A stretch of DNA of 52,538 nucleotides. Origin: Jiangella anatolica. Its GTDB lineage: Bacteria; Actinomycetota; Actinomycetes; Jiangellales; Jiangellaceae. The position numbers were made by a program, and so were the translations under genes. This document shows, piece by piece, positions 437 to 14,261 of the stretch. The DNA is taken from positions 1 to 52,538 of the forward strand of contig NZ_POTW01000042.1 in the NCBI RefSeq assembly GCF_003236295.1. Direction: 5' to 3'. A model generated the notes under the pieces. The model ran no database searches and was not told where the DNA came from. It saw only the letters and a program-made list of their open reading frames with translations. Position 1 is the stretch's first letter. Each line of letters begins with the position of its first letter.

Positions 437-1470
437 GGGCCGACCGGCCGCTCAGGCACGGACGCCGTCGACTCGCGCACCTCCAGGCGCGCGGGCGGCG
501 GTTGTCCGACGTCGTCCGTTCCGCCCTCGACCTGACTCATCAGCAGTTGTGCGGCGCGGTATCCCCACTCGGCGACGTCGACCGACACCGTCGTGAGGGA
601 CGGGTACGCGTAGCGTGTCATGTCGCTGTCGCCGTAGCCCACGATCGAGAGCTCCCGCGGCACCTCGATGCCGGCCCGGCGCGCGTGACCCAGCCCGGCG
701 AGCGCCATGTGGTCGTTGGCGTAGACGATCGCTGTCGGCGGGGTGCGGCCCTCGAGCAGCTCACGCGTCGCCGCCAGTCCCATCTCTGCGCTGAAGTCGG
801 TCTCGACGATCCGGGGGGTGCGCAACCCGCGTGTGGTCGCCGCCGCGACGAGCGAGTCGCGCCACCGCTCGGCGTGCAGCATGTGCGACGGCCCGACGAC
901 GAGCCCGAGCTCGTGATGCCCGAGAGCGACGAGGTGCGCCACGAGGGCGTCCAACGCCGCCTCGTCGGACACGGACAGCGTGGGGAAGCCGGCATCGACC
1001 CTCGGATGACCGAGGACGACGGCGTGTGCGCTCAGCTCCTGGACCAGGGCGAGCCGCGGGTCGTCGCGCCGGACGTCGGTGAGGAACACCCCGTCGACCC
1101 GGCCCGACTCCAGCAGGGAACGGTACGTCTCCAGCTCCCGCTCGAGCGACTCGACGACACTCAGTACGAGCACGTGGCCGGGACCGGAGATCGCGCGTTC
1201 GACGCCGGAGATGAAGGTCGGGAAGAACGGGTCGGAACTCAGGACGCTCGGGTTCCTGCTCAGCACCAGCCCGTAGGCCAGCGACCGGTTGGTGCTCAGC
1301 GCGCGGGCCCGGGCGTCGGGCTGCCAGCCCATGTCATGGGCCACGGACAGGATGCGCTCGCGCGTCTCCGGAGAGACGCCCGGACGCCCGTTCAGCGCGA
1401 ACGAGACCAGCCCCTTGCTGACGCCGGCGCGCTGCGCGACATCCGCGATGGTCGTCTTGCGACCGGCCAT
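433..1470 (-). CDS. LacI-family transcriptional regulator
   Basis: 345-residue regulator that probably represses the sugar-uptake locus to its left and itself. Residues about 3-50 form the LacI helix-turn-helix (TTIADVAQRAGVSKGLVSFA followed by LNGRPGV, the hinge-side signature), and the rest is a periplasmic-binding-like sugar sensor domain (GVFLTDVRR, IVYANDHMALAGL, LSIVGYGDSDM). An upstream in-frame GTG would add nine residues, but ATG at 1470 gives the usual MxxRKxTIxDVA start. A near-perfect palindrome of the LacI type lies just upstream at 1504-1517, between this gene and the divergent ADP-ribosylglycohydrolase, which supports control of both directions. The final TGA overlaps the ATG of the permease gene. 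The inducing ligand is unknown. Confidence 0.93.
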   Translation of the reverse strand: MAGRKTTIADVAQRAGVSKGLVSFALNGRPGVSPETRERILSVAHDMGWQPDARARALSTNRSLAYGLVLSRNPSVLSSDPFFPTFISGVERAISGPGHVLVLSVVESLERELETYRSLLESGRVDGVFLTDVRRDDPRLALVQELSAHAVVLGHPRVDAGFPTLSVSDEAALDALVAHLVALGHHELGLVVGPSHMLHAERWRDSLVAAATTRGLRTPRIVETDFSAEMGLAATRELLEGRTPPTAIVYANDHMALAGLGHARRAGIEVPRELSIVGYGDSDMTRYAYPSLTTVSVDVAEWGYRAAQLLMSQVEGGTDDVGQPPPARLEVRESTASVPERPVGP

Positions 1471-1503
1471 GGGCACTCCTCGTCGAGTCGGTGACACCAG
1501 CGT

Positions 1504-1517
1504 CTTAACCGGTTTAG
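1504..1517. promoter_or_regulatory. LacI-type operator palindrome
   Basis: The sequence CTTAACCGGTTTAG is a 14-bp palindrome centred on CCGG with a single mismatched pair. This matches the usual LacI/GalR-family operator plan (symmetric half-sites around a central CG). It sits 34 bp upstream of the lacI-type start and 75 bp upstream of the divergent gene at 1593, where it can repress both. Confidence 0.7.
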
Positions 1518-1592
1518 AATGTACTCACGGCCTCAGGGTTGCGCAAGCGACGACTCGCCGGCCGCCTCGTCCACCCATTCGCCAGGAGTCCC

Positions 1593-2918
1593 ATGTTCGC
1601 GCCGTACCCCGTCCTCCGCCGTCAGCTGGCGACGATGCTCCGCGACAAGGCCGAGCAGGGCGGCGCCGTCGACGATCTCCGCGACGCGATCGGCGGCGTG
1701 GCCGACGACTACCAGGCGATGGCCGACCTCGCCGCGCGCATCGACTCCGCGCCGCTCCGACCCGACTGGCCGTACATGGAGCCGAGCGACTACGCGGACA
1801 TCCAAGCGGAGCAGAACGCCCGTGTGATCGCCGCCACGGTGGATCCCGCGGATGCCGTCGCGCGGGCGCGTGCAGGCTTCCTCGGATCAGTCGCCGGCTG
1901 TGTGCTCGGCAAGCCCGTCGAGGTCATGCCGACCCTCGACGAGCTGCGCGACGCGCTCGAACGCATCGGCGACTGGCCACTCGACGACTACATCTCCGTG
2001 CGGATCGCGTCGGAGGACGGTCTGGCGAGGCTGCATCCGGACCACCTGGAGAGCGCACGCGAGCACATCCGCTGGGTGCCCGCCGACGACGACATCAACT
2101 ACACGTTGCTCGGCATGATGACGATCGAGCGGTTCGGGCGGACGTTCACCAAGTACGACCTGCGGCGCATGTGGCTGGAGAACCTGCCGCTCGGCTACAC
2201 CTGGGGGCCGGAACGGGGCTTCTTGACCAAGCAGGCCCTGCTCATGGGCGTCGACGACGAACCGGAAATGGACCTCGAGGCGCTGCCCCGGACGCTCAAC
2301 CCCGGCAACGAGCTCTGCGGAGCGATGATCCGCGCCGACGCCTACGGCTATGCGTCCCCGGGGCGACCCGATCGGGCGAGCGAACTCGCCTGGCGGGACG
2401 CCTCGCTCACGCACCGTGGAAACGGGATCTACGGCGCGATGTTCGCCGCGGCGGCGATCGCGGCGGCCTTCGTCACGTCTGACTGGCGAGCGATCGGCGA
2501 GACCGCCCTCGGCTACGTGCCGCGGCGCAGCCGGTTCGCCGCGATCGTCGGCGACTCGATCGCGCAGGTCGCGGCGGCCTCAGACTGGCTCGACGGCTAC
2601 CGACGCCTCCATGGCCGCTACGGCGAGTACGGCCACTGCCGGGTCTTCCAGGAGACCGGCACCCTCCTGAACACACTGCGGTTCGCGACGAGCGTCGGAG
2701 ACGGCATCGCCATGCAGGTGAGCCAGGGCAACGACACCGACAGTTACGGCGCGATCGCGGGCGCGATCCTCGGCGTCAAGTTCGGCCCGGGACACCTCGA
2801 ACCGCGATGGCTCGAACCGTTCGGCGACGTCATCCACACCCGGTTGGCCGGATACTACGAACTTTCGCTGGACGCCACCGCGAACAGGGTCGCCGCTCTG
2901 GCGGCGGCGCCGAGCTGA
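1593..2918 (+). CDS. ADP-ribosylglycohydrolase-family protein
   Basis: 441-residue protein of the DraG/ARH fold, which hydrolyses N- or O-glycosidic bonds of ADP-ribose or related ribosides using two Mg ions. The family marks are the motif GFLGSVAGCVLGKPVE near residue 95, an acidic metal site DDDINYT in the middle, and the C-terminal signature GNDTDSYGAIAGAILG. ATG 1593 was chosen because a purine-rich CAGGAG precedes it; a longer in-frame ATG at 1539 lacks a binding site. The gene is divergent from a LacI regulator and a sugar ABC permease. In this setting the substrate is more likely a nucleoside or glycoside-like sugar brought in by that transporter than an ADP-ribosylated protein; this is inference. 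Confidence 0.85.
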   Translation: MFAPYPVLRRQLATMLRDKAEQGGAVDDLRDAIGGVADDYQAMADLAARIDSAPLRPDWPYMEPSDYADIQAEQNARVIAATVDPADAVARARAGFLGSVAGCVLGKPVEVMPTLDELRDALERIGDWPLDDYISVRIASEDGLARLHPDHLESAREHIRWVPADDDINYTLLGMMTIERFGRTFTKYDLRRMWLENLPLGYTWGPERGFLTKQALLMGVDDEPEMDLEALPRTLNPGNELCGAMIRADAYGYASPGRPDRASELAWRDASLTHRGNGIYGAMFAAAAIAAAFVTSDWRAIGETALGYVPRRSRFAAIVGDSIAQVAAASDWLDGYRRLHGRYGEYGHCRVFQETGTLLNTLRFATSVGDGIAMQVSQGNDTDSYGAIAGAILGVKFGPGHLEPRWLEPFGDVIHTRLAGYYELSLDATANRVAALAAAPS

Positions 2919-2926
2919 GGCCCGGG

Positions 2927-3157
2927 TCAGAGGACGGCGCCCCGCGGTGCGATCTCGACAGCGGCCACGCCCCGGGCGAACACCACCACCAGCCGGCCGC
3001 CGTGCCGGGCGCGGAGCACGCCGGAGTCCTGCGCGAGCACTGCGATGGCATGCTCGACGAGCTCGTCCTCGCTGACGTCGGGCTCATCGATGGTGACGTC
3101 CATCTGCGATCCGCCGATGAACTTGACCCGCAGGACCACCGTCGCCGAGCCGACCAT
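2927..3157 (-). CDS. Small conserved-looking protein of unknown function
   Basis: 76-residue protein not recognised as a named family. It starts MVGSATVVLRVKFIGGSQMD, continues with an acidic helix (EPDVSEDELVEHAIAVLAQD), and ends with a strand-rich, hydrophobic tail (RLVVVFARGVAAVEIAPRG). There is no signal peptide or membrane helix. A good ribosome binding site (AAGGAG, 6 nt before ATG) supports this start and the gene. It ends 8 bp from the convergent ADP-ribosylglycohydrolase and is divergent from the RpiR regulator, with a shared palindromic promoter region at 3194-3206. Confidence 0.65.
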   Translation of the reverse strand: MVGSATVVLRVKFIGGSQMDVTIDEPDVSEDELVEHAIAVLAQDSGVLRARHGGRLVVVFARGVAAVEIAPRGAVL

Positions 3158-3193
3158 GAGCGCTCCTTGGCAGGGAGCCTGATCGGCTCCGCG

Positions 3194-3206
3194 TAGTCTC
3201 AGACTA
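3194..3206. promoter_or_regulatory. 13-bp perfect palindrome with opposed -10 hexamers
   Basis: TAGTCT-C-AGACTA is a perfect odd palindrome in the divergent gap between the small protein (minus) and the RpiR regulator (plus). Read either way it supplies TAGTCT, a good actinobacterial -10 hexamer. In the plus direction an ATG lies exactly 6 nt after it (3206), which would be a leaderless start for a longer form of the RpiR protein. Confidence 0.45.
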
Positions 3207-3334
3207 TGCCCGCCGGCCACGCCTCCCGGCCGAGGCCGATGGCAACAGCGGTGCCGCTGATAGGGGCGATCGGGCAACGGAGTTCTCTGTATCCTCTGCG
3301 GTGGCACAGCCGTGGCGGAACAGTGGGAGGCCGA

Positions 3335-4240
3335 GTGACCGTCCAGCGCGGGAAGGAACCCAGCGCCGGTGGATCCGAGCCGCTGACGAGCGGAGCGGTG
3401 CTGGCCAAGATCCGGGCCGCGGCGCCGTCGCTGGTGCCGAGTGCCTGGCGGGCGATGGAGGTGATCATCGCCGATCCCGAGGCGGTGATCGGCTACGCCG
3501 CCGCGGACCTGGCCGCCCGAGCCGACACGGCGGCGTCGACGGTGGTCCGGGCGTGCCAGCAGGCCGGATTCCAGGGATTCCAGGACCTCAAGCTCGCGCT
3601 GGTACGCGACCTGGCGCTGCGGGGCACCGATCAGCTCGTGTACGCGGACCGACTCGACTCGGAGTCGGACCCGGCCGACGTGCTGCGCACGATGCTCGGC
3701 GCGAGCAGCCAGGCGCTGGCCGATGCGATGACGACGGTCGACCCGGTGGCCTTCGCCGGCGCCCTGGAGGCGTTGCGCACCCGCACGCGCGTGCTGGTCG
3801 TGGGCAACGGCCAGTCGTCGGCGCCGGCGCACGACGCGGGGTACCGGCTGCAGGCGCTGGGGTTGGCGATCTCGGCTCCGGCGGACGCGCTGGCTCAGCA
3901 TCTGTCCGCCCGGCAGCTGGACGACACGTCGGCCTGCATCGCGGTGAGCCACACCGGCGCCACCCGCGAGACCCTGCTGGTCGCCGAGACGGCGAGGGCG
4001 CGCGGCGCCTACGTCGTGGCGGTGACGAGCTTCCAGCACTCTCCGCTGGCCGACCTCGCCGACGCGGCGCTCGTGGCCGGCAGCCCGAAGCAGGGGTTCC
4101 GGCTGGAGGCGACGGCCAGCCGGCTAGCCCACCTGGCGATCATGGACGCCCTGTTCGTCGGCCTGGCGTTGAAGGACCCCGCTCGATCGACGGCCTACCT
4201 GGACGCGATGGCGGACGTCACCGCCGAGCATACGATGTGA
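3335..4240 (+). CDS. RpiR-family (HTH + SIS) transcriptional regulator
   Basis: 301-residue DNA-binding regulator: an N-terminal HTH_6 domain (about 20-95, including LAARADTAASTVVRACQQAG) and a C-terminal SIS sugar-phosphate isomerase-like sensor (about 140-260, VLVVGNGQSSAPAHDAGYRL, then IAVSHTGATRETL). SIS domains bind phosphosugars, so the signal is probably a phosphorylated metabolite. GTG 3335 is preferred because GGGAGG precedes it and the length fits the family. An in-frame ATG at 3206 would add 43 unlike-family residues but stands 6 nt after a -10-like hexamer, so a leaderless long form is possible. Its 3' end overlaps the convergent HAD gene by 23 bp. It probably controls the phosphonatase-aminotransferase-ABC island that follows. 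Confidence 0.88.
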   Translation: MTVQRGKEPSAGGSEPLTSGAVLAKIRAAAPSLVPSAWRAMEVIIADPEAVIGYAAADLAARADTAASTVVRACQQAGFQGFQDLKLALVRDLALRGTDQLVYADRLDSESDPADVLRTMLGASSQALADAMTTVDPVAFAGALEALRTRTRVLVVGNGQSSAPAHDAGYRLQALGLAISAPADALAQHLSARQLDDTSACIAVSHTGATRETLLVAETARARGAYVVAVTSFQHSPLADLADAALVAGSPKQGFRLEATASRLAHLAIMDALFVGLALKDPARSTAYLDAMADVTAEHTM

Positions 4241-12127: not shown

Positions 12128-12549
12128 TGATGGAGGACGGCGAGCGGCCGGCCACGGTCGCCGACGTGCACGAGGTGGCGGCGGCGATGCCGCACGTCAC
12201 CGTCTACCCGAAGACCGAGCACCGGCCCGTCTACCAGGTCGGCGGCAAGTCGTTCGTGTACTTCCGCAACCCGCGGCCGGACGCCGTCGACCCGGAGACG
12301 GGCGAGCGGTACGACGACGTGATCGTGCTGTGGGTGGAGTCCGAGGCGGAGAAGGAGGCGCTGGTCCAGGACCCGCGCACGCCGTACTTCACCACGCCGC
12401 ACTTCAATGGGCACCTGTCGGTGCTGGTGCGGGCCGCCCGGCTGGGCGAGCTGACCCGCGCCGAGCTGGCCGAGCAGGTCCAGGACGCCTGGATGTCGCG
12501 CGCCTCGAAGGCGCGGGTCGCGGCCTGGCTGCGTGACCGTGGCGAGTAA
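12127..12549 (+). CDS. MmcQ/YjbR-family protein
   Basis: 140-residue protein of the MmcQ/YjbR group, which has a CyaY-like fold and an unknown, perhaps DNA-binding, role. The family look is given by the start EVAAAMPHVTVYPK, GGKSFVYFRNPR, the long charged stretch ERYDDVIVLWVESEAEKEAL, and DPRTPYFTTPHFNGHLSVLVR. ATG 12127 is spaced 5 nt from GGGAG and overlaps the stop of a possible mini-ORF; ATG 12130 is an alternative. The 3' end overlaps the start of the methyltransferase gene by 17 bp, so the two are co-translated. Confidence 0.8.
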   Translation: MMEDGERPATVADVHEVAAAMPHVTVYPKTEHRPVYQVGGKSFVYFRNPRPDAVDPETGERYDDVIVLWVESEAEKEALVQDPRTPYFTTPHFNGHLSVLVRAARLGELTRAELAEQVQDAWMSRASKARVAAWLRDRGE

Positions 12550-13273
12550 CCGGGCGGCCTGGGACGACGCCTCGTCCAAGCACGTCCGCGAGTACGACGA
12601 CCTGCTGGCGCAGGCGCGGACGGCGACGCTGCTGCCGGCCGAGCTGGAGCTGCTCGGCCCGGCACTGGCGACGTCGCCGGAGGTCGTTCACCTGCAGAGC
12701 GGCCACGGCCTGGACGACGCCGCGCTGGTGCGGGCCGGCGCCCGGTCGGTCGTCGGGGTGGACTTCAGCGCGGTCGCCGTCGCGGCGGCGCAGCGGCGGT
12801 CGGACGCACTGGGACTGCCCTGCCGGTACGTCGTCGGCGAGCTGCCCGGCGCGCCACTGCGCTCCGGCTGCGCGGACCTCGTCTACGCCGGCAAGGGCGC
12901 GCTGATCTGGCTGCCCGACCTGGCGGCCTGGGCCCGGGACGTCGCGCGGCTGCTGCGGCCGGGCGGGACGCTGTTCGTCTACGAGGCACACCCGGCGGTG
13001 CCGCTGTGGACGTGGGACGCCGACGAGCCGCGGATCCGGCCGGACCGCGGCTACTTCGAGCGTCGCCACGTCAACGACACCTTCCCGGCCCGCGGCGCGG
13101 TCGAGTCGCAGGCGACGCTCGGTGAGATCGTCACGTCGGTCGTCGCGGCCGAACTGGAGCTGCGGCACCTGGCCGAGTACCCCGACCCGTTCTGGCGCCC
13201 CGACGGCGTCGACGCGGCCGCCTGGCGCGGCCGGCTGCCGAACGCGTTCTCGCTGCTGGCGGCCCGGCGCTGA
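12533..13273 (+). CDS. Class I SAM-dependent methyltransferase
   Basis: 246-residue methyltransferase with a Rossmann core. Motif I is the degenerate form VVHLQSGHGLDDAALVRAGA, and the acidic end of strand 2 is VVGVDFS. Motif IV is DLVYAGKGALIWLPDL and the post-motif region LLRPGGTLFVYEAHP. The WDADEP...YFERRHVNDTFPARG segment is characteristic of a subgroup annotated only as class I methyltransferases. GTG 12533 and GTG 12539 are both possible starts; the first gives the expected NRAAWDDAS opening after a short lead. It overlaps the YjbR-like gene. The methyl acceptor is unknown. Confidence 0.83.
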   Translation: MTVASNRAAWDDASSKHVREYDDLLAQARTATLLPAELELLGPALATSPEVVHLQSGHGLDDAALVRAGARSVVGVDFSAVAVAAAQRRSDALGLPCRYVVGELPGAPLRSGCADLVYAGKGALIWLPDLAAWARDVARLLRPGGTLFVYEAHPAVPLWTWDADEPRIRPDRGYFERRHVNDTFPARGAVESQATLGEIVTSVVAAELELRHLAEYPDPFWRPDGVDAAAWRGRLPNAFSLLAARR

Positions 13274-13285
13274 GGCCACACACGA

Positions 13286-13311
13286 ACGGGGCCGGCTCTC
13301 GCCGACCCCGT
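13286..13311. terminator. Bidirectional hairpin between convergent genes
   Basis: ACGGGG-C-CGGC-TCTC-GCCG-A-CCCCGT forms a 10-bp stem with one C/A mismatch and a TCTC loop. It lies 12 nt after the methyltransferase stop and 22 nt after the end of the minus-strand small ORF, so it can serve both. Confidence 0.65.
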
Positions 13312-13333
13312 CTCGCTCCCTGCGGCCCGCCGG

Positions 13334-13501
13334 CTACCTCAGCAGCGCGACGAACTGGTGCAGGGCAACACCCAGGATGGAGAACGCTCCCACGAGACCC
13401 GGCCACAGATCCCGCAGGATCTGACCGATGAGCTCAGTGTGCTGGCGCAGCTCTCTAAGCCTGGCCAACGTGGTGCGCTCGTCCCTGTCGCGGTGACTCA
13501 A
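13334..13501 (-). CDS. Candidate 55-residue membrane microprotein (TTG start)
   Basis: A 55-codon frame, too short to be found easily. The first half is strongly charged and helical (SHRDRDERTTLARLRELRQH) and the second half is one hydrophobic helix (LWPGLVGAFSILGVALHQFV) ending ALLR. This polar-helix plus membrane-anchor plan looks like a real small membrane protein. The frame opens with TTG; a TGA lies two codons upstream, so TTG is the only usual start. The ribosome site is weak (a GAGAGAG run 12 nt away). It is preceded by a structured leader with alternative hairpins (13524-13586) and followed by a terminator at 13286-13311. No family recognised. Confidence 0.45.
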   Translation of the reverse strand: MSHRDRDERTTLARLRELRQHTELIGQILRDLWPGLVGAFSILGVALHQFVALLR

Positions 13502-13523
13502 CGGATCTCACTCTCTCTCGAGA

Positions 13524-13586
13524 GCTACCGGTGAGCCGCTGCTAACAGCCCGCCCGGTAGCCCATCTCTGGACTACGCCGGGCGGG
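13524..13586. promoter_or_regulatory. Mutually exclusive hairpins, possible attenuator leader
   Basis: Three segments can pair in two ways. Segment B (13549-13561) pairs with A (GCTACCGG at 13524-13531, perfect 8 bp with CCGGTAGC 13554-13561) or with C (CCCGCCCGG 13549-13557 with CCGGGCGGG 13578-13586, perfect 9 bp, extended by TAG/CTA after a 2-nt bulge). Both cannot form at once, which is the hallmark of an RNA switch or attenuator. On the minus strand this lies in the leader of the 55-residue ORF. A 10-bp palindrome CTCTCGAGAG (13515-13524) is adjacent. Confidence 0.45.
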
Positions 13587-13643
13587 TGCCCGATGTAGTT
13601 AAGCCCTTCAGGATGACAGCTGGTCAGCGCAGACGTCAACGGC

Positions 13644-13747
13644 TAGACTCTTGGATGGCCGGTGGAGGTGCTGCTAACACCGATGATCCCGGCCGGACCC
13701 CGGCGCGCTTCTCTCGCGAAAGCGGTGACTCACCGCGCCGGGGTTTC
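13644..13747 (+). ncRNA. Candidate small RNA with promoter and strong terminator
   Basis: A promoter-like pair, TGGTCA (13621-13626) and TAGACT (13644-13649) with 17-bp spacing, is followed about 50 nt later by a perfect 10-bp stem (CCCCGGCGCG 13698-13707 with CGCGCCGGGG 13734-13743) and TTTCT. No convincing protein is encoded, so a transcript of roughly 90 nt from about 13656 is possible. The hairpin could instead simply terminate the macrodomain gene arriving on the minus strand. Confidence 0.3.
13698..13747. terminator. Strong hairpin terminator
   Basis: Perfect 10-bp GC stem (13698-13707 with 13734-13743) with a 26-nt loop, followed by TTTCT on the plus strand. It lies 14 bp beyond the stop codon of the minus-strand macrodomain gene and can end the arginine operon transcript as well. 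Confidence 0.6.
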
Positions 13748-13757
13748 TGCTGCCCCG

Positions 13758-14261
13758 TCAGCCCTCGAGGGCGGCGGTGAGGAGCTCGTACGTCGGGCGG
13801 TCGTAGGCCACCAGGCGGATCAGCTCGACCCGCGTCGGAACGGTACGGACGGTGTCGACGGCGATGCGGGCGGCCTCCTCGGGCGGGTAGCCGAAGACAC
13901 CGGTCGAGATGGCCGGGAACGCCACGGACCGAGCGCCGAGCGAGTCCGCCACCTCCAGCGACCGGCGGTAGCAGGACGCCAAGACCGAGGCCTCGTCACG
14001 CGTCCCGCCCTTCCAGACCGGTCCAACGGTATGGATGACGTGGCGGATGGGCGGGTCGAGGTCGAACGCAGGCGTCGCCACGGCGTCGCCGGGCAAGCAG
14101 GGCGCCAGCGCGGCCCCTGCCTCCTTCAACCGCGGGCCGGCCGCCCAGTGGATGGCCCCGTCGACGCCGCCACCGCCACGCAGCGACGAGTTCGCCGCGT
14201 TCACGATCGCGTCGACGGCCTCGCGGGTGATGTCGCCCTGGACCACCTCGAGCCGCGCCAT
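13758..14261 (-). CDS. Macrodomain protein, O-acetyl-ADP-ribose deacetylase-like
   Basis: 167-residue single macrodomain of the YmdB/MacroD class, which deacetylates O-acetyl-ADP-ribose and can remove ADP-ribose from acidic residues. It begins [24 protein letters not shown], has the catalytic Asn-Asn and glycine-rich loop [17 protein letters not shown], and the diphosphate loop [21 protein letters not shown]. Length and motifs are complete. The ATG lies 10 bp after argH, so it is very likely the last gene of the arginine operon even though it has no role in arginine synthesis. Such trailing genes are common; a link through acetyl transfer (ArgJ) or NAD-derived metabolites would be speculation. 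Confidence 0.9.

Follow-up and report, generated by a model that had tools for sequence, protein, structure and literature searches.

A putative type I toxin-antitoxin-like cassette with co-varying RNA contact sites in Jiangella anatolica

The DNA analysed here, referred to as the window, is a stretch of 52,538 nucleotides of Jiangella anatolica (contig NZ_POTW01000042.1 of assembly GCF_003236295.1). It carries a cassette of about 488 bp (13267-13754), which probably represents a chromosomal type I toxin-antitoxin-like module. The minus-strand half of the cassette comprises a leader and an open reading frame (ORF) for a membrane microprotein of 55 amino acids, and the divergent half on the plus strand is predicted to encode an antisense small RNA (sRNA). 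As judged from sequence comparison of the paralogues, the sRNA almost certainly pairs with the mRNA of the microprotein, and the microprotein is quite likely a toxin-like product. Antisense control is proposed because, in one paralogue after another, one loop of the divergently encoded RNA matches the loop of the leader and another matches the start-codon region. The type I criterion of a small RNA from the same locus, complementary to the toxin mRNA, has its counterpart in these two co-varying sites.

Pairing of the sRNA loops with the mRNA

The halves of the cassette are linked by two direct repeats (13533-13547 with 13665-13679, and 13490-13503 with 13722-13735), whose upstream copies had been missed in the first-pass annotation of this DNA. 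When the two copies of a direct repeat are transcribed from opposite strands of the DNA, the resulting RNAs are complementary at these sites. The first pair of sites (pair 1) consists of the loop of an upstream hairpin of the form GGTG[...]CACC and a leader motif of the form CTG[...]CGG. In the window, recognition loop 1 reads CTGCTAA and is closed by the inner stem GGTG/CACC of sRNA hairpin 1 (13667-13681, plus strand); its target is the complementary motif TTAGCAG (13539-13545, minus strand) in the apical part of leader hairpin 2.

Both parts of pair 1 are present at 30 of the 31 loci of the first set and are identical in all 30, in 11 variants. A later search for leaders raised the set to 47, three of which (L067, L069 and L070) were too short to be read. 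Identity of pair 1 was found in 42 of the 44 readable elements (30 of the first set and 12 of 14 new ones), with 13 variants; L002, which has no leader, was excluded from the loop counts. Grouped by their flanking DNA, the 47 leaders represent 15 loci, seven of which are common to two to eight genomes. At six of these seven shared loci the motif type differs among the genomes, with L052 and L068 as the only readable members that lack an exact match to the sRNA. At the locus of the window, the motif types TTAGCAG, TGACAG and TTGGAG occur in different genomes.

The second pair joins recognition loop 2 (13722-13733, plus strand), which lies in the terminator-like hairpin of the sRNA, with the start-codon region of the mRNA (13490-13503, minus strand). 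The longest common word of loop 2 and start region had a mean length of 10.5 nt for the own partner and of 6.0 nt for the partners of other elements, which was reached in none of 20,000 permutations. Four control window pairs gave own/other values of 5.4/5.5, 5.2/5.1, 5.5/5.4 and 5.4/5.2, and here 822 to 3759 of 5000 permutations reached the own value. In comparison with the start of the nearest relative, the own start won in 22 of 30 cases, tied in 3 and lost in 5. Start codons were chosen by Shine-Dalgarno strength (28 of 30 elements with a start) and replaced a poor automatic choice, with which 14 of 29 matches overlapped the start. Of the 28 site-2 matches, 18 include at least part of the chosen start codon and 24 lie within positions -14 to +22; at least three of the four outside this range (L021, L023 and L028) apparently result from a wrong choice of start. 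In addition, the predicted duplex energy summed over both sites was -65.0 kcal/mol for cognate and -50.1 kcal/mol for non-cognate combinations (0 of 20,000 permutations).

These matches bear directly on the first-pass annotation, which had compared the leader with a riboswitch or attenuator unit. Two conserved, mutually exclusive hairpins and a nearly invariant 5' end of the leader would suit such an element. It is nevertheless very improbable, because in 42 of the 44 readable elements the variable loop has its match in the loop of a separate hairpin encoded divergently, the start-codon region has a match too, and a ligand pocket would not vary in step with a distant copy in the DNA. Nor did the leader fall into an Rfam family or show a described aptamer: the window gave no Rfam match at the gathering score and the region 13250-13800 none up to an E value of 1, in line with the annotation, which had recognised no described RNA class. 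Since the loop of hairpin 2 holds the target motif, it had most probably been the receiving end of an RNA-RNA contact that was seen at that time.

The sRNA half and the promoter region

The predicted antisense RNA, the putative antitoxin (13656-13747, plus strand, about 92 nt with estimated ends), is composed of hairpin 1 and the terminator-like hairpin (13697-13744, plus strand), the latter recognised by an inverted repeat, covariation and the matches to the own partner. A covariance model (R1) matched 13645-13761 of the plus strand with 78.9 bits, the window's own element and 29 others being its training set. In 30 sequences, 99.1% of the cells of the sRNA fold are paired and 10 of 22 pairs are compensated, whereas slid controls reached 43-49% and 0-3 pairs; where sRNA units occur in tandem, the promoter-proximal unit was used. 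The non-Watson-Crick cells of this half amount to 55 G-U versus 3 A-C when read on the plus strand (hand tally; the cells are not independent events). The sRNA was placed on the plus strand because of this bias, as the other strand would give the reverse pattern.

Promoter-like elements are found on both strands between the two halves. For the antisense RNA, these are a -10 element TAGACT (13644-13649, plus strand) and a -35-like hexamer TGGTCA (13621-13626, plus strand), and for the mRNA a -35 element TTGACG (13634-13639, minus strand) and a -10 element CATCCT (13610-13615, minus strand). In counts made without a shuffle control and with L010 excluded, all 29 elements had TANNNT ending 15-17 nt upstream of the inner stem arm of sRNA hairpin 1, and 28 of the 29 had TTGAC-17/18-CANNNT.

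The repeats flank this promoter region and could, in principle, be DNA operators of a paralogue-specific regulator, or DNA repeats without any role in RNA. The first-pass annotation had named a conserved operator as an alternative to its RNA hairpins, and this is now hardly credible. The 13 variants, with changes in length between 6 and 7 nt, are located in loops of RNA hairpins, the second repeat pair has one copy in a terminator loop and the other in a start-codon region, and the G-U pattern described above is specific for one strand. A regulator gene was not recognised inside the cassette.

The leader of the mRNA

The mRNA leader (13502-13603, minus strand) was delimited by a match of the leader model R2 (13488-13602, minus strand) and by alignment A1, from which L010 was excluded; its 5' end at about 13603 was placed according to the -10 element. 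Both hairpins which had been described ahead of the microprotein are real and conserved in 29 related leaders. The core of hairpin 1 (13549-13586, minus strand) is a perfect 9-bp inverted repeat of 13549-13557 and 13578-13586. For hairpin 2 (13524-13561, minus strand), CCGGTAGC (13554-13561, read on the plus strand) is the exact reverse complement of GCTACCGG (13524-13531). As 13554-13557 is common to both pairings, the hairpins are mutually exclusive, which agrees with the earlier description.

The region 13490-13610 of the minus strand folds better than 200 of 200 dinucleotide shuffles (z -3.65). In the 29 leaders, 95.6% of the cells of hairpin 1 and its inner extension are standard pairs (slid controls 25-50%). 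Two-sided changes occur at 2 pairs versus 0-3 in slid versions, so that hairpin 1 is not outstanding by pair count. For hairpin 2 together with a small inner hairpin, 92.7% of the cells are paired (slid controls 31-55%), and two-sided changes at 3 pairs versus 0-2 represent a modest excess of covariation. Pairing is thus kept in the relatives for both hairpins, and covariation exceeds the slid controls modestly for hairpin 2 and, by pair count, not evidently for hairpin 1. One stem pair of hairpin 2 alternates between A-U (12 leaders), G-C (10) and G-U (7); the two outermost pairs of this hairpin are poorly conserved (13 of 29 and 8 of 10). At its 5' end the leader is nearly invariant across the 29 elements (CTAACTACATCGGG, 13590-13603). 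ACTAC in this 5' end could pair with GTAGT further on.

The membrane microprotein

The ORF of 55 codons with a TTG start, reported previously, is present at 13334-13501 of the minus strand and encodes the candidate toxin. With less than 60 amino acids, a hydrophobic segment and a predicted transmembrane helix, the peptide corresponds in size and hydrophobicity to type I toxins; some relatives in a second genus of the same bacterial family have 63-71 amino acids. The predicted structure is a single helix of residues 3-54 with a mean predicted local distance difference test (pLDDT) score of 83 and a predicted template modelling (pTM) score of 0.38. The most hydrophobic 19-mer comprises residues 36-54 (Kyte-Doolittle, KD, value 2.04), and L12, L15, T22 and I28 are invariant in 22 peptide sequences.

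The peptide has four matches in the own genome. Including the latter, 12 of 60 related genomes contain a match, namely 11 of 12 Jiangella genomes and one of the second genus. No match above the cut-off was obtained for five peptides in Pfam, NCBIfam or PHROG (best Pfam E value 0.14), and tblastn with the window's peptide gave no match in phage or plasmid records at an E value of 0.01. The ORF of L002 (G000:C174:50863-51012) is in frame with an upstream stretch, resulting in an open frame of 505 amino acids, and is possibly a fusion.

Downstream of the ORF, a terminator-like hairpin (13286-13311, minus strand) was identified from the sequence, and visual inspection showed it at the end of the cassette in relatives as well. 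The terminator that had been claimed to follow the ORF is therefore confirmed as a hairpin; its U tail is weak, and the consensus scan reported no terminator.

Loss of parts and related units

Nine sRNA units of the first family (L072-L080) occur without a leader match, whereas none of the 47 leaders lacks the sRNA. L074 and L077 keep remnants of the ORF, and L073 keeps a piece of the leader. Loss therefore seems to hit the mRNA half, as is expected if the product is harmful without the sRNA. A further 16 weak matches of the sRNA model without a first-family leader (E values from 1.2e-10 to 7.7e-6) were not counted as decayed copies; six of them lie at loci of a second family, eight are CGNR-linked, and two (L089 and L090) look partial. 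Furthermore, an extra sRNA unit adjoins L004, L014, L020, L059 and L066, with a different loop where it is readable.

The second family is defined by another peptide of 48 amino acids, which matches in 9 of 22 genomes of the bacterial family (weakest E value 7e-5). Six of its loci (L155-L160) show the same sRNA design. Pair 1 is invariant in these six loci because the motif TAGCAG is common to all of them. For the start-region words, a weak difference was observed (own 8.4 nt, others 6.7 nt) in five of the six loci, L157 being omitted as a near copy of L156. In the second genus, both matched sites were recognised by eye in L132, L134, L135 and L136, which possess other peptides and, in two cases, another leader; no leader was seen for the sRNA units L133, L137 and L138.

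The argument from decay is weakened by the second family, since L161 and L162, two of its eight loci, retain leader and ORF and lack a recognisable sRNA. These two loci would also suit a membrane microprotein which is regulated by antisense RNA without being a toxin, for example a peptide for stress or membrane remodelling whose amount is adjusted by the sRNA. The evidence for antisense pairing holds equally for such a peptide, and its conserved N-terminal half could be a binding surface. It is rather unlikely all the same, given the one-sided decay in the first family; moreover, a harmful product would better explain why the copies are repeated with diversified loops and why the sRNA design is shared by a different peptide.

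Two side observations concern these units. L162 lies in G005, the one Jiangella genome without the first family. Eight genomes contain a conserved sRNA-like unit with the same two-hairpin architecture (L082-L087, L092 and L094). In L082-L087 (six flanks read) it adjoins a gene read by eye as encoding a CGNR zinc-finger protein. A matching partner was not recognised for the loops of this unit, which may act in trans.

Weighing of the evidence and possible mechanism

Beside L161 and L162 and the lack of a shuffle control for the promoter counts, several observations weigh against a type I toxin-antitoxin-like module. The loop pairs of L052 and L068 have a one-base mismatch (2 of 44), of which that in L068 is tolerated by G-U pairing; if the damaged leader of L070 (TTGGAG, with TTACCAG in the sRNA) is included, the stricter count is 42 of 45. 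By word length, the own start is the best or a tied partner for only 24 of 30 sRNAs, and those of L007, L009, L014, L021 and L029 fit the start of the nearest relative better. The energy sum ranks the cognate partner first for 20 of the 30 sRNAs; site 1 does so for 16 and site 2 alone for 11. Mismatches at site 2 show no bias towards those tolerated by G-U pairing (9 A>G and 2 C>T of the tolerated kind, 10 G>A and 1 T>C of the mirror kind), and with 11 of each this directional test is uninformative. The antisense -35-like hexamer is present in only 14 of 29 elements, and a consensus scan of 13250-13800 detected neither a promoter nor a U-tailed terminator. The N-terminal half of the peptide is polar, and L002, an ORF of the first family, has neither leader nor sRNA. 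Finally, paralogues within a genome mostly differ in loop type, which is only suggestive: among 43 hand-entered elements (L067, L069, L070 and the element of the second genus omitted), loop pairs of the same type made up 2 of 70, with p 0.02 for free shuffles and 0.12 for shuffles within loci.

A type I toxin-antitoxin-like module would nevertheless account for the paired sites in the following way. The minus-strand half would be transcribed into a structured mRNA encoding a small, helical membrane protein, and the divergent half, from an overlapping promoter region, the antisense RNA. Loop 1 of the sRNA would contact the loop displayed by leader hairpin 2 in a kissing contact of 6-7 nt plus flanks. 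The terminator loop would then pair across the start codon, in some paralogues also across the Shine-Dalgarno sequence, and the start of the ribosome would be blocked. Leader hairpin 1, which excludes hairpin 2, may be a competing fold that masks or reveals the target. If no fresh sRNA is formed, synthesis of the membrane peptide would follow, with the membrane as its presumed site of action. Transcription, repression of translation and toxicity are what we infer here from sequence features. As a tentative extension, which is possible at somewhat less than even chance, the loops may evolve into orthogonal pairs, and older sRNA units may be kept as orphan or tandem antitoxins neutralising incoming or former modules.

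Extent and distribution of the cassette

The extent of the cassette was deduced from relatives which have the flanking genes and lack the cassette, and from similarity to the paralogues over the whole element. The alignment of L168 and L171 with the window stops at 13266 and resumes at 13755/13757, and these relatives have about 100 nt of other DNA in between. The length of about 488 bp follows from the absence of this interval in two relatives with the same flanking genes; outside the syntenic neighbours, DNA similarity spans about 480 bp. The flanking ORFs (12533-13273, plus strand, and 13758-14261, minus strand) were named a methyltransferase and a macrodomain gene, respectively, in the first-pass annotation.

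The leader occurs with two to six copies per genome in 11 of 12 Jiangella genomes. Model R2, built from 29 elements of the first set, gave 46 matches in these genomes; together with L015 of the second genus this results in the 47 leaders, 17 of which were new. At an E value of 1e-4 and with stricter filters, the sRNA model found matches in 14 of the 393 genomes of the class (11 Jiangella, 2 of the second genus and 1 other). The last of these, a match outside the bacterial family in G338 (34 bits), was judged by eye and set aside as chance.

A dispersed unit of about 488 bp, its presence or absence at one junction and the second sRNA units adjoining five elements are also properties of a non-autonomous mobile element, such as a miniature inverted-repeat transposable element (MITE) or a repetitive extragenic palindromic (REP)-like sequence, in which the hairpins would be transposition signals and the ORF incidental. 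This explanation is very unlikely, as the ORF is conserved together with its start and Shine-Dalgarno sequence, promoter-like elements are found on both strands, and positions are common to up to eight genomes. A repeat search yielded no inverted repeat linking the ends of the cassette. The cassette may still move, yet mobility leaves the paired changes of the loops unexplained.

Another element of about 100 bp was observed in the place of the cassette at the methyltransferase-macrodomain junction of L168, L171 and L175. It has the inverted ends TTGATCTTGGAGTAA...TTACTCCAAGATCAA, which are slightly different in L171, and looks like a small mobile element.

Significance and comparison with known systems

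According to the cited passages of a paper from 2025, finds of type I systems had been limited to Proteobacteria, Firmicutes and Tenericutes, and a cyanobacterial case is proposed there (PMC12390103); a review from 2021 states in its cited part that membrane type I toxins are described only in Proteobacteria and Firmicutes (PMC8309996). Judged by title and the start of the abstract, none of the matches listed from the open-access literature concerns an actinobacterial type I system, and in the parts available two mycobacterial papers using the term type I report no such system. If the interpretation is true, an actinobacterial family possesses type I systems, which were detected by co-variation rather than by homology of the toxin, and this suggests a general route to further systems. 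With 13 natural loop variants in one scaffold, the specificity and co-evolution of RNA-RNA contacts would be directly testable, and the orphan sRNA units could be used to examine whether antitoxins are retained for protection.

The comparisons below refer to the cited passages of the respective sources. In par (Fst/RNA II) of Enterococcus faecalis plasmid pAD1, RNAs transcribed in opposite directions across the direct repeats DRa and DRb sequester a GUG start codon and the Shine-Dalgarno sequence; contact is initiated by the terminator loop, and poorly conserved repeats are thought to confer specificity among paralogues (PMC7472228, PMC4147584). As in par, direct repeats of the cassette would pair over the initiation codon, which most of the site-2 matches overlap (18 of 28). 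The par genes, however, are convergent and use one bidirectional terminator, whereas the halves of the cassette are divergent with separate terminator-like hairpins. Furthermore, the terminator loop of the cassette itself matches the start-codon region, and the loop of a second hairpin matches the leader. With respect to membership of the Fst/Ldr group, no match above threshold was found in Pfam, NCBIfam or PHROG, although the presence of an Fst model in these libraries was not checked and no direct comparison with Fst was made.

Divergent genes for an sRNA and a toxin, with an sRNA complementary to the leader, are described for zorO-orzO, tisB-istR1, shoB-ohsC and dinQ-agrB of E. coli, and the specificity of OrzO and OrzP depends on three variable bases (PMC3919570, PMC4147584). 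The sRNA of the cassette is likewise divergent and complementary to the leader, the motif being identical in 42 of the 44 elements that could be read. Unlike in zor-orz and tisB-istR, pairing is not confined to the leader, as two short sites are used, one of them at the start codon. In ibs-sib of E. coli, the antitoxin has two target recognition domains (PMC8309996), and Sib overlaps the initiation region of ibs and can extend over the coding region (PMC4147584). Two recognition sites are also present in the cassette; unlike Sib, its predicted sRNA is encoded upstream of the ORF and does not run across it.

Alternative folds of the mRNA are a feature of hok-sok and ldr-rdl. Both have long 5' leaders under antisense control (PMC4147584). 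Unlike the antisense RNAs of these systems, which are encoded opposite the leader, the sRNA of the cassette is a separate upstream unit. The scheme of the cassette resembles both par/Fst and the divergent zor-orz/tisB-istR group and fits neither of them fully.
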